Source: Utricularia gibba (lineage: Eukaryota; Streptophyta; Magnoliopsida; Lamiales; Lentibulariaceae). From it: a stretch of DNA of 64,000 bases. This document shows positions 1,389 to 54,113 of this stretch, in pieces. The stretch's first letter is position 1, and each line of letters opens with the position of its first letter. Below the pieces are notes generated by a model that saw only the letters and a list, made by a program, of their open reading frames with translations, was not told the origin of the DNA and searched no databases. The stretch is taken from the NCBI GenBank assembly GCA_002189035.1, contig NEEC01000012.1, positions 124,001 to 188,000 of the forward strand, in the 5' to 3' direction. Made by a program: the position numbers and the translations under genes.

Positions 1389-1409
1389 CCCCCCCCCCCC
1401 CCCCCCCCC
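1389..1409. repeat. Uninterrupted poly-C run (21 C)
   Basis: A homopolymer of 21 C lies about 135 bases upstream of the MYB TATA box, next to CT-rich promoter DNA. Its true length cannot be trusted, because such runs are often mis-sized by sequencing. Confidence 0.9.
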
Positions 1410-1542
1410 GCATTTCCTTTCCTTTCGTTTTATGTCACTCCTTTGCCAGCTTGCCGTCCACTCCACCAGGTTACTGCTTCTTTTTCACTGGTTTGAACCG
1501 GTCATCCCCGTCTTCCCCTCCCCTCCCCTCCCTCCCTCCTCT

Positions 1543-1549
1543 TATAAAA
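1543..1549 (+). promoter_or_regulatory. Putative TATA box of the MYB gene
   Basis: TATAAAA lies about 95 bases before the MYB start codon and directly after a CT-rich tract (about 1511-1540), a common plant core-promoter layout. Position and sequence are the only evidence. Confidence 0.55.
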
Positions 1550-1641
1550 TGTCCTCCAAAAGAGAAACCAGTCTCCCCAAATTCTTGCCACACCCTGCTT
1601 CCATTTCAATGTCTTAGGCTTCCTTGTTTCTTCTTCTCCTT

Positions 1642-3421: not shown

Positions 3422-3426
3422 CATTT

Positions 3427-3966
3427 TGATGGGGGATAAATCGGGTGATGATAATCGGCTTCTAAAAGGCTTCCAAAAAGAGCTATGACGGGATGGATAA
3501 CGTCAGTCAATAGACCGATATGTGTCAGAAATCTGACAGCGGTGTTTGTATGGCACAGTCTGAAAAGCAACCGAATTACGGCAGAGCAGGCGGTCGATAT
3601 CTAAAAAGCAAGATCGGGTAGCAAGCGCAGAAAGCAACCGACATCTGCTGAACTCATGAGTCGATCAGATCAATCTCTCCCATAAATAGGAGAAGCTTTG
3701 AGGAGCAAGGGTTAGACCCCAAGCCTCCCAACATGTATCTTATTCAACCATCTCCGTCTAGTAAAAGACTTTTTCCGACGAGCTCCGACATCTCCGTGGT
3801 TTTTTTCGTCTTCCGGCGGTTTCCACGTAAAAATCTTCGCCTACCCCCGTTTCGGTTGATCAAACCGAACGTAATCGTGAAAAACATAATAAAGTGTGGA
3901 ATTTCCCGACTGCACCTTTCACCCAAAAGTCGCTCCCACCACAAACAACGATTTTCACCCTTAACA
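3427..3966 (+). mobile_element. Solo LTR with 5-bp target duplication CATTT
   Basis: A 540-base segment starts with TG (TGATGGGGGATAAATC), ends with CA (CCCTTAACA), and is flanked on both sides by CATTT (3422-3426 and 3967-3971). Inside are a TATA-like CCCATAAATAGG at about 3679-3690 and, downstream, the phrase GTTTCCACGTAAAAATC typical of the end region of plant retrotransposon LTRs. No internal retrotransposon domain adjoins it, so it is a solo LTR left by recombination between two LTRs. The short ORFs inside are not genes. Confidence 0.88.
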
Positions 3967-4369
3967 CATTTTAACTACGATCATGCATAATGTTTTTTTA
4001 AAAATCTCTGAATTTTTGACTTTGATTGTCTATAAGGCTGTGAAGTAGTGGATGATGCCATTGGCCATCTGGTTTTTGTGTCGTGCATGTGATTAACAGC
4101 TGTGAATTGACTCAGATGTAGATATCACATTGTAAAATGAATGTCTCGCCGCTTGACTAGTTCCACATCGTTCAGCTTGTGTGTTTAAGTCATGTGGATA
4201 GTAAGAGGAATGATGCAATGATTAAGTTGACTTTCTTTCTCCCATTCTTCCTAATCTTGTGAGTCTTAGTTCTTGTTCTTCTATAGATGATCTTCTTCAT
4301 GATCCAAGAGTTTCAAAGTCCATTACCCCATGCATTCGAGTTGTTTTTTTCACGACCGACATGTCGTCA

Positions 4370-7276
4370 TTCACCTTGTCTATTAGGGTTTGGAGCTAAA
4401 ATGAATAGGGCATCATCCCACATTAACTGGTTTTGAAGGGGGTGGAATTCATTGGAGTAAGTAGCAACTAAAGCCTTGACAAAATAAAATTTATCAATGA
4501 ATTTTCTAGTATTTATGGAGAAACTGTGGCATGCCTACATAAGAAAAGAATAATTAATCATATTTTTTAAAAAATAAACATAATGGTAAGTGTTACCTAT
4601 TGAGTGTGGGAGCATGGAAATCTTACACTCTGCCAGAACCCACAAGTGCATGTTTGATGCGAGATGTTGACAAGGTGGACCTTGTTTTGATGTGGGCCTA
4701 TTTCAATGACAGATGTTGTCATCGTCTCTCTACTATATTCCTCAACCATAAAACCGGGAAGATTTTTTGATCCCAATTGAAATGGCTCTTCACATTTCTC
4801 TATGCATTGTTGCCTTTTATTTGCAAGAGTTTCAACTATTTTGCGACGATCCTCGAAATATTCTTTTCACTTCATGAATATTATCTACATAAGAAATACG
4901 AGATAGTCAACTTTTAAACTATTTAAAAAACAGTGAGAGTAAAGTATGAACCTTCACAATTGTAGTTGGAGGAAGGTGCCGAGTTTCACAAAACACTCCA
5001 TTTATTGATCAACATGGTTAGTTGTCATGATCTCATACCTGTTCATTAGGACATAAATGATCTTTGCAATTTGGTGCAATAAGAATGATGATTATCTTAT
5101 ACCATCATTGTGTAATAACGTCCATATATCCAAAGGAATATTCATCATGTATTTGTAGGCGCCAGGATTCGTTCGGTAGATCACACCCATCAAACATTCA
5201 AATTCCTTGACACGTGGTGTCATACCTGCACCCTAAACCAAACCATTCAAATGTTTGCTTCTGCTATGTGCGAGATAGTTGGATCTGACATTTCGAAGAC
5301 AAAATCGATGGTATCCATATAGTGGCCGGAAACCAGAAACCACATCTAAGCTGGTCTATAATCCAGAACCTCTATCACTAATTAAACATATGGGATGATG
5401 ACCACGTATAATATGAACTTGTAATTGTTCTAAAAACCAGATCCATGCAGGACTTAACTCTTCATCCACTAAAGCATAGGCTAATGGGAGAGCATGTCTA
5501 CCAGCATCCATGATGACGAAAATTAGTAGTTTGTATTTGTATTGGCTGTATAAATGCATCTCATTTACTCGTATGATTGGACAATAATGTTTCTATGCAG
5601 CAATACATGACGCAAATGCCCCTGAAAACATAATGTAGAATTGGCCCTCCCATACTATCACTGGTGTTTTTTTAAATTACCACAAATTTAGGATTTTTTC
5701 TGTCCACTTCTTGTAAATACTTTGGTAATTCTTTTGAAGAATCCTGCCAAGTGCCGTACACAACTCATAACCTTGTATCAAGACGTACCAAGCCTTCCAG
5801 TAAGAGATTTTGAATTTAAATTGTTTTACAACTTTCCATTGAATTGTGGAAACCTTGATTCTTGGTTGGTCTTTGATCAAGTCAATTATTTCTTAAGCAA
5901 GGAATTCCTTTCGTAGATTTACATGTTCCTTTGCCAAAGAACTCCGAGCATCGCATGTGTGAGGTTCTTGGAAATCTGTAATCTTCCATAATTTTGTCCT
6001 ATTTTGGAAGTGCGTTCAAGTGAATTGGACATCCGGACTTTTTTTTTCATGATTTTGACGACAAATGAAATGATAGATTGAACTACTACTTCTAGACACA
6101 TGAAACTCTATTCTCACCACAAAAATATAGTACTTTGTGATTGCATCTTTCAACTCATCCTTGCTGTCAAAGGTAAATCTGAGAGAAAGAAGCATTGTGC
6201 TGGCATTATAAAATGAATCAATTTCTGGGAGATCAGTTGAGTCCTGCAACATTGGCAGGTTGCCCCCAATAGGAAGAGGTTCATTGTTGGGCTCATTATC
6301 AGATTTAACCATTTATAAATCATCATCCTCACTCCAAAGGGTGTCTGAAACAATCTCGCTCTCAGAATCTGTAAAAATGATATCATCTTACAGAATTGCA
6401 GGGTCTGGATTTTGATCATGGATAGCAACTCCATGATATTCATTTTCATCTGTAACTAGAAGATTGTCACGTCGTGCAACATGCTCAAAATCCTCTTGGT
6501 TGCATCTAATATTTTGAGGATATGAGTTGTCAGGAAAAAACAAATAATCTGATAAAAAGTTAAAACTTATTTTTTAAAAAATGTGATATAAAACTTAAAA
6601 AGCTTTAATAATAAATATTTAATAAAATTTCAATATTGAAAATGGAGATAGAATGAAAAATGAGAAGTCAATATTCCATAAATATAAAAAAATTTGAAGT
6701 ATTCTAAAATACAAATTCTATGAAAATTTGATACTTATAAAATAAATAAGTGAAATAAATATGTTAAATGAATTCTCTAAAAACTACAAAATGCATGAAG
6801 AGACTAACCATGTAGACTTTCATGTTGTTTACTTGGAGGCCTATGTCTTAAGTACACACAAAAATCAGATAAATTATCTATGATTATATATATAAATATA
6901 TAAATATAACATACCTCTGTTTCTTGAAGATGATGCTTGATGCTGTGTAATTATAGCTTCAGTTTCAACAAATGTCTATTCCCGAGCCTGTGTGATTTGG
7001 GTGAAACAAATACCGTAGTGTGCCAACATCTATAATATGAAGGCAATTGGCAATGCCTGATTCAACTTCAAAGAACTGTGCAAAGCATGTAAGAGAGTAT
7101 TGCGTGGGTTCAACATCTATAATCGTATAAATCCGACGAATAAGTAATTCATAAGAAATATTTCTTTTCAAACGAAAAGATGCTATTGGAGAAATAGAAT
7201 ACACCATATGCCCACATATATCATTTGTGATATTACCACCATACAAAACTCGCACAGTTATAAGAGTTTCAGACAT
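4370..7276 (-). pseudogene. Decayed Mutator-like (MuDR) transposase
   Basis: Fragments in several frames line up in the order of a plant MULE transposase. It starts at the ATG at 7276 (MSETLITVRVLYGGNI, a PB1-like N-terminal part). Next, about 6300-6016, comes a DNA-binding part (FDSKDELKDAITKYYI then FHVSRSSS). About 5990-5920 reads WKITDFQEPHTCDARSS, and 5880-5680 holds the linker helices. The transposase core lies at 5530-5356 (MDAGRHALPLAYALVDEE, AWIWFLEQL, ICLISDRG), followed at 5320-5000 by YCLRNVRSNYL. A SWIM zinc finger TCTCGFWQSVRFPCSHTQ is at about 4680-4610, and the tail (WDDALFILAPNPNRQG) ends near 4370. Stops and frame shifts interrupt it repeatedly, so it cannot make transposase. 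I could not identify its terminal inverted repeats by eye. Confidence 0.85.
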
Positions 7277-7710
7277 CAGAACCTCCAAAAAGATGTAAAA
7301 TTCAAGATAATAAAAGAGAATTTTTAGGGTCGGATCGTAGAGCTGCAAGAACCAAATTCTAGAAAGAGTGTCGATGCTAATTGAGACAAATGGCGGCGGT
7401 TGACATAGAAAGTCTAGATTGTGTCTCTTCAATGGATGGGATTGAGGATCAACAAACTTGGGATCTATCCTGTAGAAAGTGAAGGGGGAACCCAACTTCA
7501 ATACCAAGGTTGGTTACATTCCTTATAAATTTAAGGAGGAGTAACCCGGAGGATGACCATTGATGAAAAGAGAAAATCACTATTTCAACTTATGACTCAA
7601 GATGGCTTGTGATAGAAAATGAGTAGAATGTGTACCCTTTTATAAACTTAGATCAAGGTGTATAGCTAAATTAGCATTGATTAAAAGGAACAATGATTTG
7701 ACACAAAGCA

Positions 7711-7880
7711 TGAATTGATTAAAAAAAACAACAATAATTTGATTTAAAGTTGAATGAATTGATTAAAAAAAACAACAATAATTTGATTTAAAGTTGAATG
7801 AATTGATTAAAAAAAACAACAATAATTTGATTTAAAGTTGAATGAATTGATTAAAAGCAACAATAATTTGATACAAAGTA
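7711..7880. repeat. 44-bp tandem repeat, about 3.8 copies
   Basis: Three near-identical 44-base units start at 7711, 7755 and 7799, followed by a shortened, diverged fourth (7843 to about 7880). Each unit begins TGAATTGATTAAAAAAAACA. A weaker copy precedes the array at about 7672-7710. It lies just upstream of the 5' end of the decayed MULE, where subterminal repeats would be expected. Confidence 0.9.
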
Positions 7881-9133: not shown

Positions 9134-12690
<3,557 letters not shown>

Positions 12691-29284: not shown

Positions 29285-32200
29285 CTAAACTTTCAGTTTG
29301 GCTGCTAGAGAAGCGGACGCAGACGAAGCCTCCGCTATTAAGGAGACGGGTTGACGAGCCTGGAGGCATGCACCGATTTCGAAAGGTCGAAGCTCGGAAC
29401 CATCAAACAGAAGATTAACTCCTGGGAGAATCACTTCCTTGCTCTCACCATCCTCCGGCTCACCTTTGGCCGCACCAGCCGTCTCTCTTGCTGCTGCTTC
29501 ATAGTCCGGTGTCAAAGAATATGATCTGCAAATCCCACAACGAATTACGAAGAAAAATAAGCAGACAGCATGGAACGTAGCGAGAGATCAATGAAAGTAA
29601 TCTGCAAGTACAACACAATAGTGGATATAGATCGTGAAGGCATACCTCAGGATGTTTCCATCAAAGCTCAGAATTTCAGTCCGATACCGTTGTCTGTTGG
29701 CAAGTTTTAGCCTTTGGTTGTCGCTGGAGGCCCCCGATATGGGAGACGAAGGATCAGTTAGAGGGTTCCATTTGCCGCTTGCGTATGTCATTAGTCTTCG
29801 AGACGAATCCTTCTCCCTTTGCAGTTCTTTCTGGTAGAGAAGCCTCGCGGTGGGACCTGTGGCTTGATACTCTGCACAAACATCACGTAACCTGCTTCTC
29901 AAGTCTTGCATGGCTTCATGATACTCATTAACAAAATCTGTTTGCAGTAGCTGCGATGAAACCACTCTTTCGCATATGCTTTTGCATAACCTGGGACTGA
30001 AAAGCGGAACCCCAAACTCCACACTTAGAGGAACCCATTCGTAGTCCTCGTCATCGACAAAAAAGTTCGCTGGTTCTCTCTCTTTGTACAACCTTAATAC
30101 ACGAATATAGCCAACATTGCATAGATTTAGTTTGCTTGAAATGGCCTGCAAAAGCATGTTTAACTTAGAGGTTTCAACATCACATAGTCCAAGTTCTGTT
30201 CCAACAGAAACTACTGATCCATCACTGCTCTTCAGGGGCAATGCGAAATCCAGAGTCACAATTTTCCCATTATCAAGGTCATGCTTGCTTAGAGGCTGAA
30301 CCAGCACTGCGGAGTACCTGAGAAGAGAATTCAAGCAGTGCAATAGAATGCTTCCTTTAACTAAATTCCCTTCAAACTTTCCTCCTAAGCCCCCGACATG
30401 AGATCCATCCCATGACCATATTAGGGCTTTTTCACAACCAGCTAAAGGTGCAGGAAGCATTCTTAAGCACTGACCTTTCATTAGAACAACAGAAAGGGGT
30501 CCGCTGGACAAAACAGAGTATAAAACGAGCTTCATCCATGGAGTCATAGACGAATTTGATGGAGGACCAAAGTGAATCGGGCCCTTTGATCCAGGAAAAA
30601 CAGAAGGTGGAAGTGGAACCATGGACACGAGTATGTCATAGTCACGGTGAAATAAACGATCCAAGGTTGCTGGTGCAAGAGAAGCCAAGCTTTCACAGCG
30701 AAGAATATCCACCCTGTACTTTCTTGCTTTCCGTATTTCTTTTCCAGCATCAGAGATTTGGACCAAATTGGGTAGTTCATCATTCTCTGATTTAAGACTA
30801 GGATCCAGTGAGTGCCCATCTTGTGTTTGGTTTGAGTCCTGAATAGCAGTTGGCAGGTTTCCATCAAGAGTAGGAGGACCAGTCGAGTCAACTTCAGAAT
30901 TTAGTTGCTCTAGATCCTCGCGGACAAGGCTGCCTTTACCCCCAGAGTGGAGAGGCTTGTCCCCATGACAATCATTAGACTCCATGGAATAAACATCCTT
31001 GTTCATTGGTGTTAACACAAAATTTTCAACTTCGTTACTGGCAATACCTCCAGAGCTTAGGCACTCAAGGATGCATCGAAGACTGAAAGCATGGTTAGCG
31101 AACTCCTGTAACTCCCCTTCAAATTTGGCCCCCTCAAGAGAAGCAAGATCTCTGCAAAGATCCGCAATGCTTGCATTGCCTAATTTTCCAGCTTCATAAA
31201 GTGTAATAGCATGGGATTTCAGACCTGAATAAAAAATAAAAATAAAATCATACCACAAAAAACATGTTTCACGAAGGGGTACTAGAAAGGCAATTCATGA
31301 TGGAAGAGTTCAGGCTATGGTGAATGAATCATCCACCGGACGCAAGTTAGGTGTACATAGCTAAAACAACAACGATAAAAACAGTGAAATTTCCCTTCAA
31401 TACTTGGAATCCTATGGCTTCTTCAAATTGACAATATCAAAAATTGGGGTGGATTGAAACTTCTATAGAAGAGACAGTCGAGATTTCAGGGGCATCAAAC
31501 AATGGACGAGAGCATGGGACGTACCTGGTGAAACAGATCCCATCATAAGATATGACGTAATATTAGCATCAACAATGAATGCTACACGCGAATAATCAAA
31601 GGCAGCAGGACTAGGATTATCAGTCCATAGTGCATCTCCCACAGCAGCTTCTTCATCACCAATCACGTTTTTAGAAAACCCAGGAACATTTGACTCTTGA
31701 AGTACAGATGCAGGATCAATAAGCTTTACAGCCCATCCCAGTCGGCAAGCAAAAGATGCAGCAGCCTGTAGTTGTGACAGATCAGATTGTAGGGTAGATG
31801 CTAATTCTGCAACTGTTGAGGTTTCGCTTGACACCACAAATACGGCATACAGCAACCTATTTTGTGATCAAAGTACTCGAATCATAAATGATCAGCTTGT
31901 AATCCAGAAGATGCAACGGTTAAGTTCCTTACTCCTCTATAGGGTCTTCATATTGCTGCTCCCTATTCGACACAAATCCTTCTAGCCTTGAAACTGGAAA
32001 TTACAAATCACAATAAGATTGTATGTTATCTGCAACCTAAGCAAAACAAAAACAAAATCGAGATTTTGTGTCAAACTTAGTAGTAAGAGCTTATGAAGCT
32101 CTACATATATCTTCACAGAGAGTTCTACGACCATTAATGTAAGCATGCTATGTGCATTTTTATATACAAAATTTTTTTCAACCATCTTTTAGTGGATTAA

Positions 32201-34392: not shown

Positions 34393-36199
34393 TTTTTTTT
34401 TATTTTCCCCGCGCGAAAGGACGACGCGATTGGAGTCAACGAACCAACTAGAGCATGATCCGAGTGAAAACGAGGAGCATCTAGGAGTCAGATCACCAAA
34501 CACCGGTGGTGAATGATTTCGGAAGCCGGATCAGGCCGGCGATGGGGATTCGGTAACGGCACAATCCTCCGGATCGCGAATTGAGCATCTGAGCCAACTG
34601 GCGGAGTGCTTAAATGAATTAAATGGCTGCGTTCTACCCATTTCGTTCTCCAACGTTCAGAATTCAGCTCCACGTATTGTAGTATTTATACTAGTCAACA
34701 ACCTTAGAATTTAGTATTATTTTATGTTACAGGGTTTTTATATTATTCGTAACATTCAATGATAAACTGTATGAAAAAAAACATTAAACCTGGTAATATG
34801 ATTTAGGTTGAAATCATCGTTGACCTAAATAAATTAAGTAAAATAATATGGCATCGTTTGGAAAAATTACTTCAAAATTGATTTTAACAAAATTAAAAAT
34901 TTTGATAAAATGAAAATTAATATACATCTAAAATTATTTTTTAAAAATAATAATTATAAAATTGATTAATTTTTAAAATGAAAAATAATAATTTTTTATT
35001 GTTATAATTAAATAACATATTTATTAATACTCATATTTTATCAATTCATTTAAATAAAATATATTATATAATATTAATATTTATCCAATTCTTAATTAAT
35101 CATTGCTATCAACTCAAAAAATCATTGTATTTGTTCGAAAAATGACCCATTGAGGAGAAAGAAAAAAAATTCTTACTTTAATCATTAATATTAATGCTTA
35201 TTGTGTTACTGATGAAAATTTGTACTCTACGCCATATAAGTACAATGAAATTTGATTTAAAAAAATATAAATTAGTATTTACTTTAAAATGATATTAATT
35301 ATAATTTTATATTAATAAATATGTATAAAAATAAATTCATTTTTTAAAATCAATTATTAATAAGAAATTATGTATGAAAAGCTACTTCTTAAAGAATTGA
35401 AATGATTCCCAAAAATCAGTTTTCATAAAAGAGAATCAAATGTATATTTGAAAGTTAGAATCATTTGTATGTGAATAAAATTGATTTTAGTAAAATAGAA
35501 TTAAATTCCAGACTTAGGTTACGAGGGTACCAATATCGGTGGAGAATTCAATGATGAAGAAAGGCTTCCTAGTTGTAGCCGATAAACGCTGAGGTGTAGT
35601 TTTTGTTTAATAAAAAAATATGAATACAGTGATAAGGTTTTGAAATAATACAAAATGAATTCGAATATTGATTGCGCTTCTCTCCCACACAAAAACACGT
35701 ACAGCCCACAGTAACTACATCTCCAAGGATGCTTGCTCCAATGTTACTCTACAAAATATCTTTTATTTTTATGGAAAAAAAATAATATCCGATTAATGGA
35801 ATTACATTTTTATTTATGAATTTCAATATTTTCAGACGAATGATTAATATTTTATTATAAAAAAGGACACGCAATCTACTGAAATTGAATAAAATGAATA
35901 AAAAATTTAACAATTGATCTTTTTGAAGGCGGGCCGGGCCAGAACCAAGGTAAAAAGCAAGGCGTTGGGATAACGTAGCTTGACTTTCCTCAATAGGTAG
36001 CTAATGGAGCGAGTATGAAAACTTTGACTTCAATCAAACTACGGCGCCGCCGCTGCCCTCGCCATCTGAATTTTCTTCCCTCCAGTATATTAGAATAAGG
36101 TACGCTGTTCTCGCCTCCATTGAATCCGATCATCATTACGACGGCGAAGCTGGTTGTGAAGAGTCGAGGTTTTCGTTTCGTCTGGAAATTCTTCTGCCT
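34393..36199. other. FAM91 promoter and AT-rich intergenic DNA
   Basis: About 280 bases next to the FAM91 start are GC-richer and probably form its 5' UTR and core promoter. From about 34690 to 35900 the DNA is AT-rich with no recognisable content. The last 250 bases before 36200 are probably the promoter and 5' UTR of the RING gene. Confidence 0.5.
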
Positions 36200-36619
36200 A
36201 TGGATTGTAAGATGGATGAAATTGGGGAACTTAGGATGAGGAAGCAGCCTCCGCATCTGTGTTGCAGTGGATATGACAACGGAAATGGTGATGATGCAGG
36301 AGACTTTGAGTGTAACATCTGCTTGGATTTGGCTCACGATCCCGTCGTCACACTCTGCGGCCATCTGTTTTGCTGGCCATGCCTTTACGAATGGCTTCAT
36401 TTCTACTCTCCATGCCTCCAATGCCCTGTTTGCAAGTCTGCTGTCGACGAGGAGAGGCTGGTTCCGCTGTACGGCCGTGGGAAGAAATCTGCCGACCCTC
36501 GCTCGAAATTGGTTCCTCATCGGCCGGTCGGGCACCGGCAAGAGACGGCCAACCTGTTACGTTATGGGAATGCCGGCAGTTACCAGCAGCCGGGACAGGG
36601 TATGGAATTTGAGATTTGA
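36200..36619 (+). CDS. RMA-type RING E3 ubiquitin ligase, short form without membrane anchor
   Basis: A single-exon ORF of 139 residues. The RING is C3HC4 with C38, C41, C53, H55, C58, C61, C75 and C78 ([20 protein letters not shown], then CPVCK). After it comes [18 protein letters not shown] and PHRPVGHR, the segment that marks the RMA group of ER-anchored E3 ligases (RMA1-3, RMA1H1). RMA proteins normally continue to a C-terminal transmembrane helix. This one stops at GMEFEI, and no hydrophobic stretch follows in any frame for the next 100 bases. It may be a soluble variant or a truncated copy. A second ATG four codons downstream is possible. The RING itself looks intact, so ligase activity is plausible; loss of ER targeting is inferred. 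Confidence 0.85.
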
Positions 36620-38299: not shown

Positions 38300-40330
38300 C
38301 TTTTAAAACAGGCCTAACATGGACTTTGGAATATTGAAATTGATTTATCTGTTTGTAAATTTGTAGTACAAATTTCAGATTGCAACTATTGTTGGCCTAG
38401 ATAATATAATTGATATATGATATCATTTCATTAGACATATTTTCATATATGATATAGTATAAATTTGGAATATCAAAACTTCATATGTTTTTTTTCTACA
38501 AAGCCTATAGTATATATGATTTAGGCCAACAAAAGAGTAAAATGAGATAAAAACATCATGACAACATAAAATGATGAAGATGGATGAAAGGTAGAAAATG
38601 AGTTTAGAGGAAATTATTATCAAACAATTGAATTCATTTTTTTAAAACTCAGATCCGGATTTGATATATAAGCATAACTTTATGTTATTTCAAAGGTTCA
38701 CAATTAAAAAAAGAAGAATATTATTACTTATTAGACTTTTTATTTGAATGTAATATGAGGTTCATCAATGTAAATAATATATTAGATATTAATGAGGAGT
38801 TATGAAACAAATTAAAATACATTAGTATTTTTGTCAATCAAATTCACTTGTGATGCAATGATGTTTATGTTTTAACATTCTTCAAAAATTCATGATTTGA
38901 GACGCAAAATATAGCCCTATTACTATAATTAGATATAAATCTTTTGAAAGCATAAAATCATAGAAAGTCTTCAATAACTTATATGAATAATGTAGAAAAG
39001 AAAAGAAATTGAGGGTGATAGGAGTTGGAAAAAAAATGGTATTAGAGAAGCGATGATCTCATATTATTAATTAAAATGGTTTTTAACTTGTTGATATAGT
39101 ATACTAACTCATTAACCTTGATAATCTTGAAAATGAGTTGGACCTCATGTGTATGTAAAATCTAATTTATTAGATCGATTTAAGTTTTTGAAGGACTCTC
39201 AAAAACCATGTTATGTACTTGAGGTTTTGACTATTTCTTGTTCTTGGTGTTCGATTCACAACAATACATAAGTTGTACTTTGTGATTGTGTTTTGGATGA
39301 TATGATGACTTTCTCGAATATCCCTTGTTTGATGTTCACACCAATAAGCATTTTTTGTTGACTTATAATAACATATTAATGAAAAGTATGATTACTACAA
39401 GTATCATGTTTCATTTCAAATACAAGATTGACTTCATCATATTTCCTTCACTCTTTAAATATTGCAATTACCCATTTAATTTCTTGACAACTCTCCATCA
39501 TAGTGAAATAACTCCAAATGGTCAATTGTAATATTTGGGCCTCAATTTTACATGGATCTCATGTGTAAGGTGCAAGCACCGTAAGGTATCAATTATGCTG
39601 CAAATTCCAAAATTTTTACCCACAAACTTTCAATTGTATGTGGCTATACTCTATTAGTTACAAATATCACAAATACTCAATTTTGATACTTGCAAATTAC
39701 TTTATGAGGTTATAATCCATTATCAACAAGCATAACAAATGTTCAATTATATTACTTACAATTATATTCATGAGATTATAATACATTATCCATAAGTACA
39801 AATATCTTAATTGTTACTTTATATAATTTATTTGATAATTTGGAAAATTATTTCAATGATTTTCAAAATTAACACAATTATCTTAATTGTAATGATTATA
39901 ATAGTGATTCACAGTGTGCTTAGAGTATTTACAAATCTAACAGATTACACTTATGCATCAACCTCTTTTCCCTATGCTTAGAATTCTTCTTTATAAGAAT
40001 AATTAGATGGTTGATCTTGATCATAATTAAACTCAAATTTTATGAGTTCTGTTGAAGTAAATTAAATGATTGAGAATAATTTTCATAATTGAAATTTCCA
40101 CTTCAATTATCTTGAGAATAATTTCCATATTGTGGTCTATAATTTAATTAAATCACCATGATCATTACAATTAAAACAACCTATTGATGGCCCATAATCA
40201 ACAAGAAAACCTATAGTTAAAACTGAATTTTCTTGTTTAAATTATTTTTGGAATTCATAACATTGCTTGATTGCCAAAAATATATGCAAAAGGCTTCGAA
40301 AAATGGTAGGGGCTATTGAAACGTGATTAG
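38300..40330. other. AT-rich intergenic DNA
   Basis: No gene family is recognised. A 68-codon plus-strand ORF at 39325-39531 has no recognisable match. The right part may hold the lost N-terminal region of the MULE that follows. Confidence 0.45.
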
Positions 40331-40333
40331 CAT

Positions 40334-43300
40334 GTGGAGTTGTCTACTCATAAGGTGAGGAGAACAAAAGAAAATGCAAGGAAGATGGCGGTGGGAAGTA
40401 TGAAGAATGATTTTGAGCACCTACGAAATTATTATGAACAATATTGTGTATCGAATGAAGGTACTACCATGACAATGTTGAAGGTAGACGGTGGTGAAAA
40501 TAGGAAAAGTAAAATATGCGAAGAAGTTTATTTTTGTCCTAAGGTATGCATTTTTTAAGCATTTTTTTATATACTTGTGAATTTGTTTTTAATTTTGTAG
40601 TGTTTTTGTCCTAAGGTATACAATGTTTATTGTTGAACATTGTACGTTAGAGGTATATTTTCTTTATTATGTAATGACAAGTTAGTATTTAAGTATAGTT
40701 AGTTTATTGGATTATGTGATAATATTTGATTCTTTTTTTAGTATTTTCGTGATTTATATGTTAATTATAGGCTTGTAAAGATGGATTCCGTATATATGGC
40801 CATAATGTGATTAGAGTTTATGGCATGCATACGTGGAGTAAATTGAATGAGAAAGTGTTAGTGGCGACGGCCTCAAATTCGAATAATGGAGTTTTCTCTC
40901 TTGCATGGGGTGCTGTTGGCGATGAAACTTTGATGGCTTGGACTTGTTTCATGAAATTGCTTGCCAAAGACTATGGTATTTCGGAAGAGATGCAAGAATC
41001 GTTTACCATAGTTTCAGATAGAATTCCTGCAATATTATCCGTTTTAAGAGACTTACTTTTGAAAATCAAAGTAATGCATTGAGCCATGTATGTTAAAAAT
41101 TATAAACTAACGATGTTTATTTGACACTTGGCTATTGTACTTTGCAGATCCACCATTGTGACTTGCATTTACTCAAGAATCTTGATAGAAGTATTTTAGC
41201 AAAGTTGATGGCTGTTTTGAAGGGCCATGTGTGAGCTACCACTCAAGCTACAACGCCTAGTTAATTTAGGCATGTTATGGATATACTTAAGGAATGCAAT
41301 CCCGAAGCATACGAGTATATGTACGTCATCCCACTATCCCAATGGTGTTGAACATTTTTTGATCAAGGCAACAAGTGTGCCATTTTGATAAACAACAACT
41401 CAAAGTTCCTTAATTCAGCTCTCAAGGATGCTAGGAGGCTGGACCTAATCGAGCTTTTGGAACGGATTAATGGCAAGGTTTGTGATTGATTTGTTAAGCA
41501 TTGTTAATATGCATCAATATGGCATGGAGATTTATGTACAAGAATTGAGAATATTCTAAGTCAAGCATTGGAAATGGAAGAAATGGGCATATGGACGGAC
41601 GTTGGCGATCGAGGTAATTACCGATGGTCGGAGGGAACAAAAAAATACACCATTCAGTTGATCAATCATTTATGTGATTGTAGAGCATGGGAAATTACAG
41701 GTATGTATTTTATTGTATTTTTCCTATTTTATTATAAGAATTGATGTTATATGTGTAGTATTTTTTAGTATAAATATTTTGTTAGGTTTATTATCACAAT
41801 TGATGTTATATGTGTAATATTCTTTAGTATGAATATTTTGTTAGGTTTATTATCAGAATTGATGTTATATGTGTAATATTCTTTAGTATGAATATTTTGT
41901 ATTCTATTGTTAGATTTATTAGAAGAATTGATATTATATTTGTTGTATTTTTAGTATGAATATTTTGTATTCTATTGTTAGTTTTATTAGAAGAATTGAT
42001 ATTATATTTGTTGTATTTTTTAGTATGAATATTTTGTATTCTATTGTTAGTTTTATTAGAAGAATTGATATTATATTTGTTGTATTTTTTAGTATGAATA
42101 TTTTATATTCTATTTTTAGTTTTATTATAATATTGATATTATATTTATTGTATTTTTTCATATGAATAATTTGTATTTTATTGTTAGTTTTATTATCATA
42201 TTTGATATTATATTTGTTGTATTTTTTAGTATAAATATTTTGTATTTTAATATGTGTTTTGCATTTTTGTATATTGTTTATTTAAGTATACCTTGCAAAA
42301 CATGCAACCGTTGCTATTATTTTGAAGGGCCATACTTTGGTCGAATACACGGATTCTAGATATACACGTATGGCCTATCAAATAATGTATGATGATGATG
42401 TGTTCAAACTTCCAAAAACTGAAGAATGACCTTGTATAGTCGACTTACTACTACTTCCAACTAAGAGGAAGTATAGGAAACTTGGTTGTCCATCTACTTC
42501 ACGAAAATGTAGATTCTTTAGGTTTTGTTCATCACACTCTTTTTTGTATAGATTGGTTTTGGATTTATGGTCGATTGAATGTAACTTGTAGGCTGATATC
42601 ATGTTCCACATGTGATAAGAAAGGCTACAAGAAAAAAGATTGCAAAGAGGGTGAATTAAATAAAGATAGGACTCAACGAATGGAGGAGGATGAAACACTC
42701 ATGTCATTGAAGCCATGTACAGCTAACATGGAAGTTGCTGATTATTGTAGTTTGATGGATAATGAGGAAGTTGATGAGATTTCTCACCAAAGCCCTATGA
42801 AAGTGAAGAAATAAAATGCTAAACCGCATTAAGAAATACCTCTGAAGACGGTCCCAACAAGTGTGGTGTATATCATACTACATAGTCAAACTAACAACAA
42901 CGGAGTGATCTTCAATAGTTGCATGAATATGCGGGTGGAAGTCCGCAGCAACTCGGATGCTTTTGAATTTCAATTGGTTCCAAGAAATAAACGAAGGTGT
43001 AAGGCTCTCCATTTACGGGTGTATGGCGAGTTGATGGACGATATACTAGACGACATCATTGAGTAAGTCAATAGATATGAATCCAAAAGAGTATAAATTA
43101 TGTTTTTTTTTGGAATTTTTATTCATGATTATTTTTTTTATCTGTAGAAAAATCGTGGCATTGCAGCCACCGGATTGTCTAACGTATGTTGCATTCATTC
43201 ACAACCTATGGATGCAACATGCCATGGAGAAAAAGTTTGACTTGGAAATGATTGAAAAGTGGTGTGTGAGGTATCATCTATGCAACACTCATCACATCTT

Positions 43301-43850
43301 CTTGCCAATTAACATGAAGTAAGTTTTTCTATATATATATATATATATTCCTCATTTGTCATTAGAATATGTGTCACTTTGAATTGTTTCTATGTCTCGT
43401 AGTGGTCACTACATCCTTGCCATATTGTGCAATCTTGAAGAGAAATTCTTGTCTTGGATTCAATGCATAGCATATCGACTCATATAACAAGTAACCTTCG
43501 AAAATAAATAATATGTTTTAATACCTTGTGTTATATTGTATTTTATTATTAATCTCTATTAATCTTTTTGTTATGTATGATCTATAGATTAGTGGACTCC
43601 ATTTTTAAAATGAATGGTTGAAATGATGATTGTGTGAAGGAACTTGAGTTGTCTATTTTTTTGCCAGAGTTTAGTATGACTTTGTTAATATTTTTTTTTA
43701 TTACGTTGATCAACATATAGGTCCCTAAATAAAAAGATGCAACTAAGTGCGGGATTTATGTGTTATAATATGTGCATCTCTTCCTCCAACAAACTCCCAA
43801 TCTTCACACTATCGAAACATATCCCTTGTTTGTAAGTAATTTTCAAATTT
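40334..43850 (+). pseudogene. Mutator-like element carrying a ULP1-like protease module (Kaonashi-type MULE)
   Basis: In order on the plus strand: MAVGSMKNDFEHLRNYYEQY (40386 on); the transposase core, joined over an intron, with ACKDGFRIYGHNVI, AWGAVGDETLMAWTCFMKLL and FTIVSDR (40770-41080); IHHCDLHLLKNLD and an RHVMDILKECNPEAYEYM block (41150-41330); GIWTDVGDRGNYRWSEGTKK and CDCRAWEIT (41590-41700), which is the first half of a SWIM zinc finger. After an intron full of tandem repeats the finger resumes at about 42285-42430, then a zinc knuckle CSTCDKKGYKKKDCKEG (42605-42655). Downstream is a C48/ULP1-like part: WCVRYHLCNTHHIFLPINM joined over an intron to NGHYILAILCNLEE (His box, 43402 on), and KCGIYVL followed by a stop (Cys box, about 43748). 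The first DDE aspartate is absent (VIRVYGMHTW where DG is expected) and stops occur, so it is a relic. Confidence 0.75.
41707..42250 (+). repeat. Minisatellite inside the MULE intron, unit 57-69 bp
   Basis: About eight direct copies of a unit containing TTTAGTATGAATATTTTG. The first copies are about 57 bases; the later ones gain an internal TATTCTATTG-type segment and are 69-70 bases long. Because 69 is divisible by three, the array creates a false repeated ORF (MNILYSIVSFIRRIDIIFVV). It sits between the two halves of the SWIM zinc-finger code. Confidence 0.85.
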
Positions 43851-45064
43851 TATCAGTTATTTTATTAGTCAGTACTAAGTACTATTATGTTTCTATAAAT
43901 GGTATGAGATTGGTTCGTTGAAGAAGATGTTTGTGAATTTGCAGAATTGACAGAGATTCCTCATCAATCTATGAGCGACTGGGTAAGCAAACCTTTCAAA
44001 AAAATGTAGACATTGAACTTGTTTATTGGTATAAGCTTGTAAACTTTGTTATTTGTTTTTAATACTATTTATACACTATATTTGTTTTTTTAAATTTTTA
44101 AACAAACATTATATGAACAATCATAATATGCTTATGATTTCTGTATTTTTTGAAAATTAATTTATTTGAATACTTATTATATCATTCTAATTACATCTAA
44201 TAAAAAAATAAATACAAGTATGTAGAAGGGTATAAAAAATAATACACAGAACCCACTCCTCAATAGAGGGTGACACGGGCGTGGAGGGTGGCATACAGGC
44301 ATGAGTTATGGCAACCCACGTATGTGTGTCATGCCGTGTGGAGTAGCACACGTGCATGGGTTATAGCATATTTTTTTAAGGTGTGATTGATATGTTTGGG
44401 GTATTCAAACTTATAATGTAATAAAAGAATATATATCTTATAAAATACATAAGTATCGAATGCATTATTTCTTTATACCTTTCACGGATAAAGTATAATT
44501 TTTTGTTATATTATTTTTTATTCATAAAATAATACATTCAATACTTATGTGTTCTAAATAAATAAAATAATGCACTCAATCCTTATTTATTCTAAGAAAG
44601 GAATGCATGATTTTATTTATTATGTTTTACTCATAAAATAATGCATGCGATTTTTATATGTGTTAAGTAAAAAGTGTATTATTTTATTTATTAAAAATAT
44701 AATGATCGAATGAGTCACATATGTTGAATTGATATCGATTCAGGTCAAATATATAGAACCTCATTTTACAATGGATAAAAAATGTCAAAAATTCAAAATT
44801 TTGGATAAAAAATGCCATCACCCCCATTTTCTTGGATTCTCCATCAACCGTTCGACTTCAATCGATTTAACATCTGTAGTTGCATTCACCATAAGACATC
44901 TACATCTAAAATTTCTAATATCAGAAAATCTTTCTTGTCCTCGTCTGAATGGTGGGCCCCTTCAGTTTTCACTACAGGTTTTCTTTTCTCAAAATAAATT
45001 GTGTAAGCATTTGGATGATTTGTTGTTCTAGTGGGTGAACAAGGGGAAAGTGGATCGATATGAA
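43851..45064. other. AT-rich DNA between the MULE relic and the copia element
   Basis: A GC-richer block at about 44240-44380 repeats the words GGCATACAGGCATGAGTTATGG and CACACGTGCATGGGTTATAG-like phrases in short form. Beyond it are loose repeats around ATAAAATAATGCA. No gene or element ends were identified. The 100-codon ORF at 44729-45031 matches no family I know. Confidence 0.4.
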
Positions 45065-45439: not shown

Positions 45440-48400
45440 CAATATGTTTGGTTCATTCATAAAATACCGGATTAGCAGTGATGTGAATAGCAGATTTGTT
45501 GTCATACCAAAGAGGAATGGGTTTTGGCACTGGTTGATGAAGGTCTTCTAGAATGTAGGAAATCCAAAGAAGTTCATTTGTGGTTGTGGCCAGGCTACGG
45601 TATTCTGCCTCTACTAAAGACTTGGACATTGTGCCTTGCTTTTTTGTTCTATAGGAAATCAAACATCCTCCTAGCATGTAAAACTTGTTTCAATTCATCG
45701 ATTGCAGGGAGAGAAGGACCAACTAAGAGAATATTATCAACATAGACTGATGAAGCAAGAAGTGTGGTTGCAGTTTTCTTCACAAAGAGACATGAATCTG
45801 ATAAGGATTGTTTAAAACCCAATTAGCCGGGGAAACGAGTAAGTTCCAAGTTCCATTGTCTACCTGCTTGCTTGAGAGCATAAAGTGACCGTTTGAGCTT
45901 GCATACCTTATCGGGGTTGACATGATATCCCGGAGGTGGTTCCATGTAGATGTCTTCATCAATATGACCGTGGAGAAAAGCTTTGTTGACATCTATTTGG
46001 TGTAGATGCTAGTTCAGCTTTGCTGTAAGAGCCAGCAAGATTCGTATGGTAGTAATTTTGGCCACAGGCACAAAGCGCTCAGTGAAGTTCACGCCTTCCA
46101 CCTGAGTATACTCTTTAGCCACAAGGCACGCCTTGTATCTAGCAATGGTATCGTTAGGATGTTTTTTGATTATGAAGACCCATTTGCAGCCAATAGTCTT
46201 TTTTCCAAAGGGTAGTGTCGCCACTATCCAAGTGTAGTTATCCACCAATGCTTGAATCTCAAGAGCCATGGCATCTTGCCACACCTGTATCCCTTTAGCA
46301 TGTTCATAAGTAGGGGGTTTGATGAACGTTGGAATGGGTTGCTAAATGTCGCGGTTTAGCACATTCAACGCATTAAAGAAATTTATAAATCGAGCTATTC
46401 TACTACACAAATCACAAGAATTAATGTAGTGTGGCAAACAAGGGTCGAATCCACAGGGAATGGTTGCAATTTTCTGAAGTTCAACACAATTACTTGAAAC
46501 AGGGGGTTTTCTGGGATTTAAGTCTAATGCGGGTAAGACGTAAAATAACAGTTACTGGAATAAACGAGTTGCAGGGATGAAAAGGGACTGAAATTAATGT
46601 GAAGGTGCATAAAACATAAAATAAAAGTAATTTGGTTGGGTTTTACACTAGGGTCTAGCTCTTGTGTCACTCAAGAGAGCCCTTAGGTTTAAACCCAGCT
46701 CGGAACGCTTGAAAACAGAGTAATAGTTTGCAGAAACAAAGCATGGTTCGCATGAACAGTAAAAGCGCGTTAAACTTAAAGGCAAACATGGAAAGCTTAA
46801 ATAGAAACATGTTTATAAACTAAGGCAAGGTCTAAAACGAGTTTCGAGTTCACACCAAGGTACCGAAAAGCATTAGAAAGCATAAAAATGACGGCAATAA
46901 CAGTAGCTAGTTCACGTAGAAGAGGGAGTGCAGAAATCTATAAATAAAAGTTGCAGGATGCTTCTGTGGGCTGGAAATCGAAGTTCTGGCCGGAACGGTG
47001 GTGTAGACACACAGATCTGGAGGTCGCCGGAGACTTGCGTCAGAGAAACGGAGTTCTCCTTGCTCCCGCTCGCTCCTGTTTGCTGCCTGTGTACTCTAAG
47101 TGCACAGTGTTCTCCTCTCTTCTCTCCCTTCCTTTTCCCTTTTGCCGCTCAAAAGTAAGGGTAGCTTCGTCTTTTCCTCAGGCTTCTAGAAGGGAGATAT
47201 CTGCTCCATATCTTATCTCTTCAGAAGGGCGGCTACTTTCGGCGGAAAGTGGCTTTTGTACAGCTTTTCTATCCCTTCTGACTTGTCAACGCGGAAAGTG
47301 CGCTGCTACAGTACTAGCTCTTACCCCGGTAAGACTTAAAACATAGACTGGACAAAATATTAGAGTTTTCGGCTCAATTGTTGCCAATTGAGCCTGTTTT
47401 CACAATAAACACATTCTAGCAGACTAAATACGCAAAAGAAGATAATTTAGCACACTAAATAACATTTATCCCTACAAAATATGCTTAAAAACATATATAA
47501 AAACATAATAAAAATGGTGTTATCAGGGTTCCTCCAATATGAAGACAGGCTCATGGTCCTTGACCTCTAAGGATGCAGTTTGTAGGGCGACATAATCTGG
47601 TTTCCAATATGGAGCTCGTCGTATTCTGGAACTCCTTCGGATGGGATCATTTGTCAAGCTAGGATGTTCTCTTAGAGATTGCTGGCTTGCGTCATTACTT
47701 ATAGGATGCTCATTGGAAAAATGGTGACTTGCAGTGGGCACACAAATGTCTGCTTGTTGAGATCTCATAGTGAGTGTGCCATCAAGACGCTCACCACTAG
47801 TCTCATGACCTGCATAAGTAATGTTGTCAGGGCTGGCAGTAGCTTGAGGACCTGCAGCAATAGTGGAGGGATGCAAAGGATCAGCATCATAATAGTCACC
47901 TAGACCATTGACATTGCCATCAAGATCAACATTGTCATTATCAATTAGGAATGCCAAACAACATCAAAATCTGGAGCATAGTCATTAGCGCCCTTCAAAG
48001 GAAAAATATGTTCATAAAACTTGACATCCCTACTAATGAAGTAGTTAAATCATAGCACTTATAGCCTTTATGACCAACGGGATAGCCCACGAAAATGTAT
48101 TTTCTGGCACATGATGCCAATTTATCTGCTCGTGGGTTAGAGACACCTGAGTAGCACAAGCAACCAAAAACAAGTAAGTGGTCTAGCTTGGGCACTTGCC
48201 CCAAAAGCTGTTCATACAGAGATTTCCAATGCAACACACTAGCGGGCAATCGATTGATCAGGTGCGTTGCTGTCAATAATGCTTCGCCCCAAAACTGTTT
48301 GGGGAGACCAGATTGGAAGAGCAATGCTCTGGTAACTTCAAGGAGATGTTTGTGCTTGTGTTCCACATGTCCATTTTGTTGCGCACGGTTAGTGCACGAA

Positions 48401-50559
48401 AATTGATGCAGAATCCCCATAGAGTTACATAATGAACGCATATGATCAATGAGAAACTCATCCTCTTTATCGCTGCGTATGTTTCTCATGGTTCCAGCAT
48501 ACTACGTCTCAAAGAATCGTAACAGGTTTTGCATATGATCACAAACAAGAGACTTAGTATTCAACAAGAAAGTCCATGTGCACCTTGATAAGTCATCAAC
48601 CACTGTTAGAAAATATTTGGACCCTTGTAGTGTGGCAACATTATATGGGCCCCATAAATCACAATGTATAAGATGAAAAGGGGATGGTGAAATTGAAAGA
48701 CTTGGAAAGAAGGCTAATCTCTGAAACTTGGCGAATACACAAATATCACATGGTTGTCCACGAAGGCTACAATCAACTGTCAAATGTTTCGCCTTATTTT
48801 TAGATGTGTGTCCCAAACAACAATGCCATAAAAGCGCAGCATTTAAACTAGTCATAGAGCCACAAATGAAAGATAATTTCGACCATATGTGATCTACCAA
48901 ACTACCCAACGCCAAGGGATTGGAATGATGTAGAGCCTTTTCTGCAGCAGCAAGGAAATGGGGCAATCAAAATCGACTATCCAATATGTATAAGCCATCA
49001 TGCACTCGTCCACAGCGAGTAACTTATGGGGGACCCGGTCCTGCATCACCCAATGATTACTATATAGACTAAAAAAGACATTCATATCCTTCGCCATACG
49101 CCTCACGGATAGCAGATTAAATCTAAAGTTGGGAACAAATAGAACATTGGATAAATGCATATCATTCTTCAGTGAGACATTCCCAAGACTCTTTACCTAT
49201 ATAGATAAACCATTTGGTAAAGAGACAATGACATGGTCAACAGCACATACAACTTGAAAGTTGTGCATGGAGCATGTGATACGAGTAGTGGATCCAGAGT
49301 CAATAACCCATTCCCAAGGTTTACAGCTAAAAGATGGATCAATCTTGCTAGCCATTAACAATTCTGAATGTAACATACCTGCAAAGTGGTGTGTCATATT
49401 GGCCATATGACCTTGAGAGTCATAACTAGTGGATGAAGATGGCAAGGGTGGCTGTCATGATCCTTGATTTGCAAAAAGCCATCGCAACTCTTGTTGTATG
49501 ATGTGGAGGGAAGTTTCAAAGCCATTGGATGGCATATATCCATCCTCAAATAGTGTGTCCACACAGTGTGCCATTGGCTGAGAAGTCGCTCTATGATGGT
49601 AGTGAGCCCCCATGTTCTTGTTTGTAGGACAAGGTTGAGAGTAACCATCATTATGGGTGTACCATGGAGAGCAACCATTAGTAGGATTAGAGGTTTGTTG
49701 ATGGAAAGGGACACCAGCAGATGTATTAGTTTTCTTTTTGTTCCACCATGGCGGGTAATTCCCAATGAGGAGATAATAGTTCTCGCGCAAGTGTCCCTGC
49801 TTCTTACAATAGTCACAGTAAATGAGTTATTCATAGAAACATGAAACACAAATTCATCATGTGATTTAGCACTCATGGCAGCATTGGAAAATGTGTCTAG
49901 TGGTTTCGACGTCTTGGCCCTTTCCTGTTCAACATTGAGTAAAATGCTATATGCCTTCTCAACGGTAAGGCCATCCATAACAATAATTTCATTTTTCGTC
50001 AACTCAAACCACGTCAGAATTGAGTCAATTTAGTAGAAGCAATGATTTTATCAGAATGAATAACTTTCTTGTAAGAATCACATTTAATCTTAGGAGTAAT
50101 AGTATCAAGATCCTTCCATAAACCACTCAATCTAGTGTAATATTCAGCAATGCTCATATCACCCTACTTCAAATGATAAATGTCATGTTGTAGCTGATAA
50201 AACGGGCTATTATTAAGCTGTCCATAATGATTTTGCAAGGTAATCCACAATTCTTGTGCGCTAGTAGCACCACAAAAGCTCGTAACCAATGATTTTGAAA
50301 TAGAATTGAGTATCCAAGATAAATGCATAAATTGAGTATTTGAGGAATGTCACCATAGATAAAACCTAACTTATTCTTTGCCCCTAAAGCCAATCGGACA
50401 CTTCTTCTCCACTCAAAATAATACATAACACTGAGGAGGAGAACTCATGAGTGCAATGTTAGGATGTTCATAACCACTCAGAGCCAAGGGATCTAATTGA
50501 TCTAAAATAATAGGAAAATCTGATTCTGGTCCTCGCGAGGCTTCATCGCCCGATGCCAT
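45440..50559 (-). pseudogene. Degenerate copia gag-pol
   Basis: Gag starts at the ATG at 50559 (MASGDEASRGPESDFPIILD), is broken, and resumes with YFEWRRSVRLALGAKNKLGF; its zinc knuckle reads YCKKQGHLRENYYL with a lost cysteine (about 49760-49800). Protease: WVIDSGST near 49300. The integrase region holds LLWHCCLGHTSKNKAKHL, FHLIHCDLWGPY, VVDDLSR and, after a stop, FSCTNRAQQNGHVEHKHKHL. RT: WQDAMALEIQALVDNYTWIV, ARYKACLVAKEY, and a YVDNILL active-site box (about 45735). RNase H: SKSLVEAEYRSLATTTNELL and YDNKSAIHITANPVF. RT and RNase H abut, so the stretch between them is deleted. Frame shifts and stops make it non-autonomous. Confidence 0.85.
46341..47525 (-). mobile_element. Solo LTR (Ty3/gypsy-like) nested in the copia RT region
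   Basis: An 1185-base block separates two adjoining parts of the copia polyprotein and is flanked by GGGTT on both sides (46336-46340 and 47526-47530). On the minus strand it begins TGATAACACC and ends CGCGACATTTAGC. Near its end it carries CCCTGTGGATTCGACC, a phrase common in plant gypsy LTRs. It has no retroviral domain. If the end is taken as ...GCA instead, the direct repeat shortens to four bases; the exact end is therefore uncertain by one base. ORFs inside (46928-47346) are not genes. Confidence 0.8.
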
Positions 50560-51626: not shown

Positions 51627-52474
51627 TCAGGTTGTCGGAGACACATTTTCCAATGGAGATTGCAACAGCATGGAAGAAGTGGATGACTGTTTTTGCCTGG
51701 AGGAGATGCAGTTGAAGCTACTTGTCAGCCTCCGCCTCTCGGATTTCTCGATTTCGGGGTTGTGTTCGGCTTCCGTGATCTTGAATGCTTCCGGGAGGAC
51801 GCAATTGAAAACTGAACCTGAGCGTGGAGCAAGAAAAAAAAAAAAGGGGATGTTCTGAAGTCTTCCTTTGGTAGTTGTTTATGAGAGAGAAAGTGGAATT
51901 GGTTACCCAGGTTGGCGAGACGATTGACCCATTTGGGGACATGTTTCCCTGTCAATTTATGGCAGACGTCGTCGGAGAAATGGTTACAGTTCTTGAAGAT
52001 TAAGTGATAGGTGTTGCCATTGTAGTCATCCGCCAGGTGTTCGATGAAATGCCTGACCTGAGAGGCATTTAACGTGGTGGTGCCGATGAAGATGGATTTA
52101 CGAAACATGAACTCAGGGCATTGCCGTGGCTCCACTTCGAAAACTCCGCTCGATGGGTAATCGTGTGCCCGAAGGCGTATTCCACGCCGTCGACTGCAAA
52201 GAAGAAACAAAGCAACACATTTTCGAGTTTGAAAATGGTATCTCAGAGCCAGTTTACCTTCCACACCGGAGTGAAAGATCCCGAAGCCAGCCCAGTAGAA
52301 GTAACCGTTTGCCATGGTCAAATCGTAGACGTTGAGGTATACATTTGTAGCTTTTGCATTGTGATTATGATCGTGGATATGAGCTTTTGAAAACAAGCAG
52401 AAACAACGAGCTGATTTCTCTGTTAGATGCAGAGGGACGATAGATTTCCATCTCTTCTTCAACCTCAAGCTCAT
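51627..52474 (-). CDS. DeSI-like / PPPDE-domain protein (deSUMOylating isopeptidase-like), with a frame break
   Basis: Exons 52258-52474, 51907-52193 and 51627-51817 (GT-AG) rebuild a PPPDE protein of about 231 residues. It starts MSLRLKKRWKSIVPLHL, then VYLNVYDLTMANGYFYW and GFGIFHSGVE with the catalytic His (68). Exon 2 gives VEYAFG, then HDYPSSGVFEVEPRQCPEF, TYHLIFKNCNHFSDDVC with the catalytic Cys, and VPKWVNRLANLG; exon 3 gives VFNCVLPEAFK. PPPDE proteins are papain-like cysteine isopeptidases that act on SUMO or ubiquitin. Between YAFG and AHDY the frame slips: at 52168-52170 there are three G (minus strand) where one more base is needed. Everything else is intact, so this is either a fresh null allele or a sequence error. 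The start codon is the least certain part. Confidence 0.85.
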
Positions 52475-54113
52475 TCTGCTCCAAGGGTGTCTATCACACA
52501 GCCTCAACTGGGGAAACCAAAGACACAACTATAAGTTAGCCTCCGCATTTCAAAATAGTTTGGTTTCAGCGCTAGTGTAAATGAGACAGAAGCTACTGAT
52601 CAGAAAAAGAGAGAGACAGACGTATTTTGAAGAGCCCAGATGGAGAGATCTGGTCAAATGTTGGAAGCAGGGGAAGCTAGTGGAAACAAGGGACTAGATG
52701 GAGACAATAATGAAGATGTTTGCAGTTTCAGTGGCAGACACCATCGTGAAGACGTTTGGTCAAAACGGTGACTTTTCTTGTTCTTCTTCTTCTTCCGGTG
52801 AGGAAGAGAGAGAAGCAAAAAAACCAGCAACCAGATAAGTAGCTCTAACAGGGATCTTGTGGGGGTAGGCCAATTCTGGGCTTTTAGGAGGGGGATGAGT
52901 AGATTTTTGGAAGGAAGTGCATTGAATGAAAAGGGGGAGGGAGGCAACAAAAACCGGAAAAGGTAAAGAGATAGAGATATGAAAACACGGTTGAATGTGA
53001 CAACATTCACACACACCTCTACCTTTCTCTCTTCTCTTCTCCTCTCCTCTCCTCTTAAGAGAAAATAACATTTAAAACACTGCCTCGAGATGGATTTTTT
53101 CATGTTTTTTTTCTGTTAAATAGAGAAAATTATATAGTTAAAATTATGTTTCTTTTGGTTGAAATTGCTTGAATGTTATATTAATTGTATTCTGCATAAG
53201 TTGAAATTATATCTATAATATTCATAAAAAATATAAAAGAAACACAACAGCCCACAGTAAATACAAATTATATAAAAAATACAAAAGCTGTGTAAGATGA
53301 GGGCGCTTTTGGCTCACCTGTCGTGCCCTGTTACACAAATATCCATGATAATAAAAAAAACTCATTTTTTATTATTACAAAAATAAGAATGTAATAAGGT
53401 GATTGGTTTATGAGAATAAAGCCAAATATTCCGTAAATTTAGCATAACTTTTGGGAATAAATTATTAAAAAACGAGAAATGTTATATGATTTTAGAAACA
53501 GACATAAGAATGGAAAAAAATATTTATAATAATGCATAAGTTACGGTTTTAATATTGTACATTCCAAAATCCCAAAGTATTTGTATGAGCTGGGCATAAA
53601 AGAATAATTCAACAATATAATAAATGAAAAAAATTTGTGCATTTCAAAAACAGAAATAATTTTCCAAAATAATACAAAATATGTAGAAATAGATTATGTT
53701 TTTTTAGTTTCTACTTTGGAAAAATAAGAAATAGAACTTGAAGTTAATTAAATTGTGTTTTTGTAGACACCAAGCCCCTAAGGCAAAGGGAATAAACAGT
53801 AGCTGTCCTTGTCATATCTTCTAATAAAAAAACAAATACAATATAAATGGAGTTTGGAAAAAAGCTTTAACCAAGAGAAAATATTGCATTTACAAACATC
53901 AAATAATTCATCTTATTTTCCATTTGAAATCAAATACGATTCAAATGTCAGGATGTTATGAACATGAACAATAAAAATATTTATTTTTGTACCAGGAATA
54001 GGATGCATTCGCATTTGCATTTGCATGCCAATCTAGTGAGCTGATCATGGACTTTTTCAGTGTATTTAGGGGTTCGTCGAGGTTTGCGTCTCCCGAACAA
54101 GCTTCTGATCAGC
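52475..54113. other. DeSI upstream region and intergenic DNA
   Basis: 52475-53060 is CT/GA-rich, probably the promoter and 5' UTR of the DeSI-like gene, with a CTCTTCTCTTCTCCTCTCCT tract at about 53030-53050. ORFs there are low-complexity. 53100-53960 is AT-rich with nothing recognisable, and the last part is probably the 3' UTR of the JAC1-like gene. Confidence 0.5.

Follow-up and report, generated by a model that had tools for sequence, protein, structure and literature searches.

The window, by which we mean the whole stretch of 64,000 nucleotides analysed here (G000:C244:124001-188000), holds a dead copy of a Mutator-like element (MULE) at 40319-44824 (+). The copy is truncated at its 5' side. 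Its parts follow one another on one strand in the order transposase, SWIM finger, zinc knuckle and ULP1/Peptidase_C48. A sequence-only reading of this DNA had proposed a MULE with a ULP1-like protease module, and the motifs it named are all present in the order and orientation it gave. The features are listed below, where L025, L026 and L032 are related loci and an asterisk inside a motif is a stop.

40319..44824 (+): 5'-truncated dead MULE with a fused transposase-C48 gene; limits from homology edges
40319..40543 (+): remnant, cut on its 5' side, of the transposase exon between the DNA-binding and DDE domains (KRD..HVELSTHK...VYFCPK); 78% identity to the L026 exon, E 5.6e-33
40771..41070 (+): DDE exon, MULE (PF10551), first Asp changed to Tyr (VYGMH); the exon by itself scores 21.0 bits to PF10551
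41148..41700 (+): transposase exon; SWIM finger, first half (CDC); L026 identity 76% and 75%
41701..42285 (+): intron within the SWIM coding region; degenerate tandem repeats of ~69 bp
42286..42521 (+): exon with the rest of the SWIM finger (CKH), put out of frame by a 1-nt insertion; 67% identity to the L026 exon, E 1e-26
42592..43062 (+): exon with the CCHC knuckle and a linker ending LHLRVYGELMDDILDDIIE; 78% identity over 158 codons, E 3e-81
43148..43318 (+): C48 exon a (KIVALQPP...HHIFLPINM); 84% identity, E 4e-32, within the PF02902 match
43403..43503 (+): C48 exon b, with the catalytic His (NGHYILAIL) and, after a frameshift, the Asp (LDS); placed by the SENP7 alignment of L032
43588..43669 (+): C48 exon c (LVDSIFKMNG*NDDCVKELEL...); donor GTTAGT changed to TTTAGT
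43721..43831 (+): C48 exon d, Cys box PK*KDATKCGIYVL*; 78% identity, E 1e-16
43899..44009 (+): last exon (MVRDWFVEEDVCEFAELTEIP...KKM*); from the sequences of the window, L025, L026 and L032 and the in-frame last exon of L026
44711..44824 (+): element 3' terminus with sub-terminal GGGTCAAATATG-type repeats, ending in ATGCCATCACCCC; 78% identity to the L026 3' terminus, E 1e-19

The right edge at 44824 is the same 3' end that target site duplications (TSDs) define in L026 and L035. The left homology edge at 40319 lies within an exon, and it was found against 7 of the 9 main copies, which extend further upstream. The N-terminal and DNA-binding exons are absent from the window copy, and the missing 5' half has no match elsewhere in the window and none upstream of 40319. 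No TSD pair could be made for this copy because its 5' end is absent and nothing like a 5' end lies upstream. The DNA before 40319 is single-copy in the genome searched (100 Mb in 516 contigs), which makes a deletion likelier than the insertion of a repeat at this point. The sequence-only reading began the element at 40334, near the true break, but it stopped too early on the 3' side, where the last exon runs to 44009 and the terminus to 44824.

Decay of the two halves

The transposase of the window copy is recognisable but badly damaged. Its DDE exon (40771-41070) is 82% identical to its counterpart in L026. The first Asp of the DDE triad is lost (VDGTH to VYGMH), while the other copies keep it. 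The transposase part has 6 or more stops, and several lie in frame in exon 41148..41700. Read through its lesions the SWIM finger (41700 / 42286 onward) gives 28.4 bits to PF04434. The zinc knuckle, CSTCDKKGYKKKDC at about 42605-42646, has a Tyr in place of the His found in its relatives (CSTCGKKGHKKKDC). The GT donor of exon 40319..40543 is conserved. Exon 42592..43062 joins the transposase to the protease with a phase-2 junction to the C48 exons, and its equivalent is free of stops in L025 and L026. BLAST self-offsets of the intron within the SWIM finger step by ~69 bp. These repeats are present in other copies too and their number differs among elements, so it is possible that repeat number is what changes the length of this intron.

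The protease part has to be spliced before it can be seen. When the C48 exons of the window (43148-43831) are joined, with X at the stops, they match PF02902 at 34.3 bits (E 2.7e-8; cut-off 20.7 bits). This bears out the C48 match that the sequence-only reading had placed in 43100-43850. For the transposase, PF10551 reaches 27.0 bits when lesions are read through (cut-off 27.6). A raw six-frame translation of the genome searched with PF02902 recovered no copy of the window's MULE family. The C48 part is decayed and split over at least 4 short exons, so only the spliced reading detects it. Apart from the MULE exon, short exons searched singly matched Pfam no better than by chance. The proposed join of HHIFLPINM to NGHYILAIL turned out to be a phase-2 GT-AG intron that is conserved in most copies.

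The protease of the window is as dead as the transposase. A stop replaces the Gln expected at the oxyanion hole (PK*K) and another follows KCGIYVL, and there is a frameshift directly before LDS. Two donors and one acceptor are lost: the GT donors of exons b and c, and the acceptor of the last exon (TATAG to TATAA). The earlier view that both parts are dead, made from the missing Asp and the stop after the Cys box, stands, and the further stops, frameshifts and splice losses add to it. Judging by these lesions, the window copy is incapable of transposition or deSUMOylation.

Relatives and the structure of the gene

Genome protein searches used the MULE exon and the first C48 exon as queries and returned largely overlapping loci, about 13 in the 100 Mb searched. 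The transposase exon was found at 57% identity or more at 10 loci, the window included. In 9 of these 10 the C48 module lies downstream on the same strand; it was not seen in the tenth, L039. L036 retains other transposase exons and C48. Three loci (L035, L037 and L038) have C48 and at least one element end but have lost the DDE exon. Every locus recovered by a genome search with the knuckle-linker exon as query has a C48 exon too. Wherever a copy holds both modules they point the same way, and the same-strand arrangement recurs in 4 further diverged element lineages of the genome. In L040 and in the two L041 elements C48 follows the element's own SWIM finger. PF02902 scores in relatives are 35.1 (L032), 27.3, 36.5 and 28.0 bits. 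L026 is the best relative, with 52.8 bits for MULE, 36.8 for SWIM and 31.6 for DBD_Tnp_Mut. The modules do occur together elsewhere in the genome, as the sequence-only reading had supposed, and some of these relatives have TSDs. It must be noted that L041 (G000:C409:451001-461000) holds 2 distinct MULE-C48 elements that stand tail to tail in opposite orientation.

These are transposons by their ends. L026 is flanked by an exact 9-bp TSD, GAATTTTCA (element 1018-7868, 6851 bp), and so is L035, with CACCAACTA (element 1430-7709, 6280 bp). The two elements are 80% similar over 91 bp at the 5' end and also match at the 3' end. The terminal inverted repeat (TIR) of L026 is an imperfect match of ~22 bp that was equalled in 4 of 1000 shuffles, and no TIR signal is detectable in L035. 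This implies a non-TIR or degenerate-TIR MULE. Non-TIR MULEs are known. The sequence-only reading had suggested a search for full-length copies with TIRs; L026 and L035 are TSD-bounded copies with C48, and their TIRs are not clear. One can imagine a scenario where a host gene domesticated from a MULE-ULP fusion has been duplicated in the genome, and several copies do retain long open exons. Against it are the TSDs, the many decayed copies across contigs, the internal deletions that keep the element ends (L035 and L037) and the lack of an intact copy. We consider domestication extremely improbable.

The protease is not a separate gene of the element. In L026, 11 predicted GT-AG exons join without a change of frame into 2925 nt that begin with ATG and end with TAG. 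The spliced product has about 974 residues, with 3 internal stops and no frameshifts. It runs from an acidic N-terminus through the MuDR DNA-binding domain, MULE, SWIM, CCHC, a linker that ends in APHLRVYGELMDDVLDDIIE and C48 to a short conserved C-terminal tail. The copies share conserved splice sites with compatible phases. Because the L026 exons splice in one frame, we read the protease as part of the transposase protein and not as a separate cargo gene. No other gene was recognised in the ORF list of the TSD-bounded element. The predicted splicing shows the gene of this MULE family to be an 11-exon transposase-C48 fusion. Since no intact copy turned up, stops have to be read through to obtain the fusion protein: among the related loci in the 100 Mb searched the fewest defects are 3 in-frame stops. 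The expectation of active relatives fares poorly here, as every copy seen is broken.

The fused gene also decides against the Kaonashi label that the sequence-only reading gave to the element. In the KI-MULEs of Arabidopsis (Hoen et al. 2006, cited through PMC2528002) the ULP gene runs opposite to mudrA (PMC2528002) and is one of three genes (PMC13317346). The likeness is that both are MULEs with a ULP protease-like domain and with TIRs that are absent or unclear. It is also reported that ULP-carrying VANDALs hypomethylate their relatives (PMC13317346), which would suit a true Kaonashi (KI-MULE / VANDAL-VANC) relic whose ULP protein is a separate anti-silencing gene. However, here the protease is on the same strand, in frame and part of the one gene recognised within the TSD-bounded element, so we find a Kaonashi relic very unlikely.

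A better comparison is with the ULP-MULEs of melon, rice and grapevine, which come in direct and reversed forms (PMC2528002; review PMC13317346). In some of the grapevine families the ULP region lies downstream of the transposase and points the same way. For melon and rice the source is van Leeuwen et al. 2007, cited through PMC2528002. As far as these sources describe them, they share with ours a transposase followed by ULP/C48, in direct orientation in some, 9-bp TSDs, and TIR and non-TIR forms. The window's element belongs to a different family, a comparison made by published descriptions. It adds a member to the known direct-orientation ULP-MULEs. What we have worked out for its family from predicted exons is the in-frame fusion, the 11-exon structure and the parallel conservation of C48 and transposase described below. 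ULP domains are also found in CACTA elements (Cactavine-2, -3, -4, -5 and -13; PMC2528002). Those are likewise DNA transposons with a ULP domain, but their transposase is of another superfamily, and the window element is a MULE with a SWIM finger and 9-bp TSDs.

Constraint on the protease and its possible role

It is worth considering whether the protease was ever a working part of the protein. The closest solved structure to the C48 part is SENP7. The C48 part of L032 matches it with E 2.7e-8, and His, Asp, Gln and Cys are all present and aligned. In this it resembles the SENP6/SENP7-type (ULP2-like) SUMO proteases. It differs in being a putative protease that is part of a transposon protein. 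Between the main family and its sister L031, the one further lineage in which the comparison could be made, pS is 0.74 and pN 0.40 for C48, and pS is 0.72 and pN 0.39 for the transposase. The proteins are still 43% (C48) and 45% (transposase) identical, although synonymous sites are saturated. This like conservation implies that both parts have been kept under similar constraint since the split.

The rival reading is that C48 is passive cargo, a host ULP fragment transduplicated by the MULE in a Pack-MULE-like or Kaonashi-like capture. Gene-fragment capture is frequent in MULEs, and ULP capture is thought to have been repeated (PMC2528002). The evidence from within the family is also weak. Most changes there postdate insertion, and a codon model gives omega 0.80 for C48 (shifted-frame controls 0.84 and 1.54) and 0.73 for the transposase (controls 1.03 and 1.08). 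Recent selection on C48 is not demonstrated, because 0.80 is close to one of its controls. Simple counting gave a within-family dN/dS of 0.44 for C48; we dropped this as proof of constraint once the value rose to 0.80 under a codon model that allows for transition bias.

However, passive cargo would have to be spliced in frame with the transposase, follow the linker in every knuckle-linker copy, keep its catalytic motifs in the further lineages L034, L040 and L041, and be conserved equally with the transposase at saturated synonymous divergence. We regard passive cargo as unlikely. The sequence-only reading called the module captured. The module is present, but a recent passenger is unlikely because C48 and transposase diverged in step across deep lineages. 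The comparison with L031 argues for a predicted protease that was a long-kept working part of the transposon protein and not accidental cargo.

We argue that the window very probably holds one copy of a decayed multi-copy plant MULE with 9-bp TSDs, whose transposase-C48 fusion gene encoded a presumed local deSUMOylase. In the intact ancestors the DDE part would have cut and pasted the element. The zinc fingers and the DNA-binding domain would have tethered the protein at the element ends. The fused protease, brought there with them, may then have stripped SUMO from proteins at the ends. The substrate might have been the transposase, or else chromatin factors through which the host silences the element. 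We hold with moderate to low confidence that C48 removed SUMO locally from the transposase or from silencing factors. More tentatively, this genome could hold a deep MULE clade in which a SUMO protease is a permanent C-terminal domain of the transposase, with deSUMOylation at the ends during transposition countering host silencing or activating the enzyme itself; this broader idea is speculative and rather unlikely. ULP domains recur in plant transposons with no known role. The fused C48 offers a concrete protein for testing deSUMOylation as an escape from silencing or as control of the element's own enzyme.

Neighbourhood in the window

The window holds a second, different MULE transposase fragment (IIRVNEMHLYSQYKYK...) at 5422-5577 (-), with a PF10551 match at C244:129284-129571. 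No C48 module was found near it. A decayed Ty1-copia type retroelement with integrase, reverse transcriptase and RNase H motifs adjoins the MULE downstream (45450-50030, -). Four likely host genes were recognised by eye: an R2R3 MYB at 1618-2445 (+), a progesterone 5-beta-reductase/iridoid-synthase-like gene at 9134-10381 (-), a FAM91-like gene at 29588-31294 (-) and a RING finger E3 (RMA-like) at 36005-36619 (+). The ORF at 51725-52528 (-) looks by eye like a PPPDE / DeSI-type peptidase. We take it to be a coincidence that a SUMO-pathway-like protease of this kind lies close to the ULP relic.
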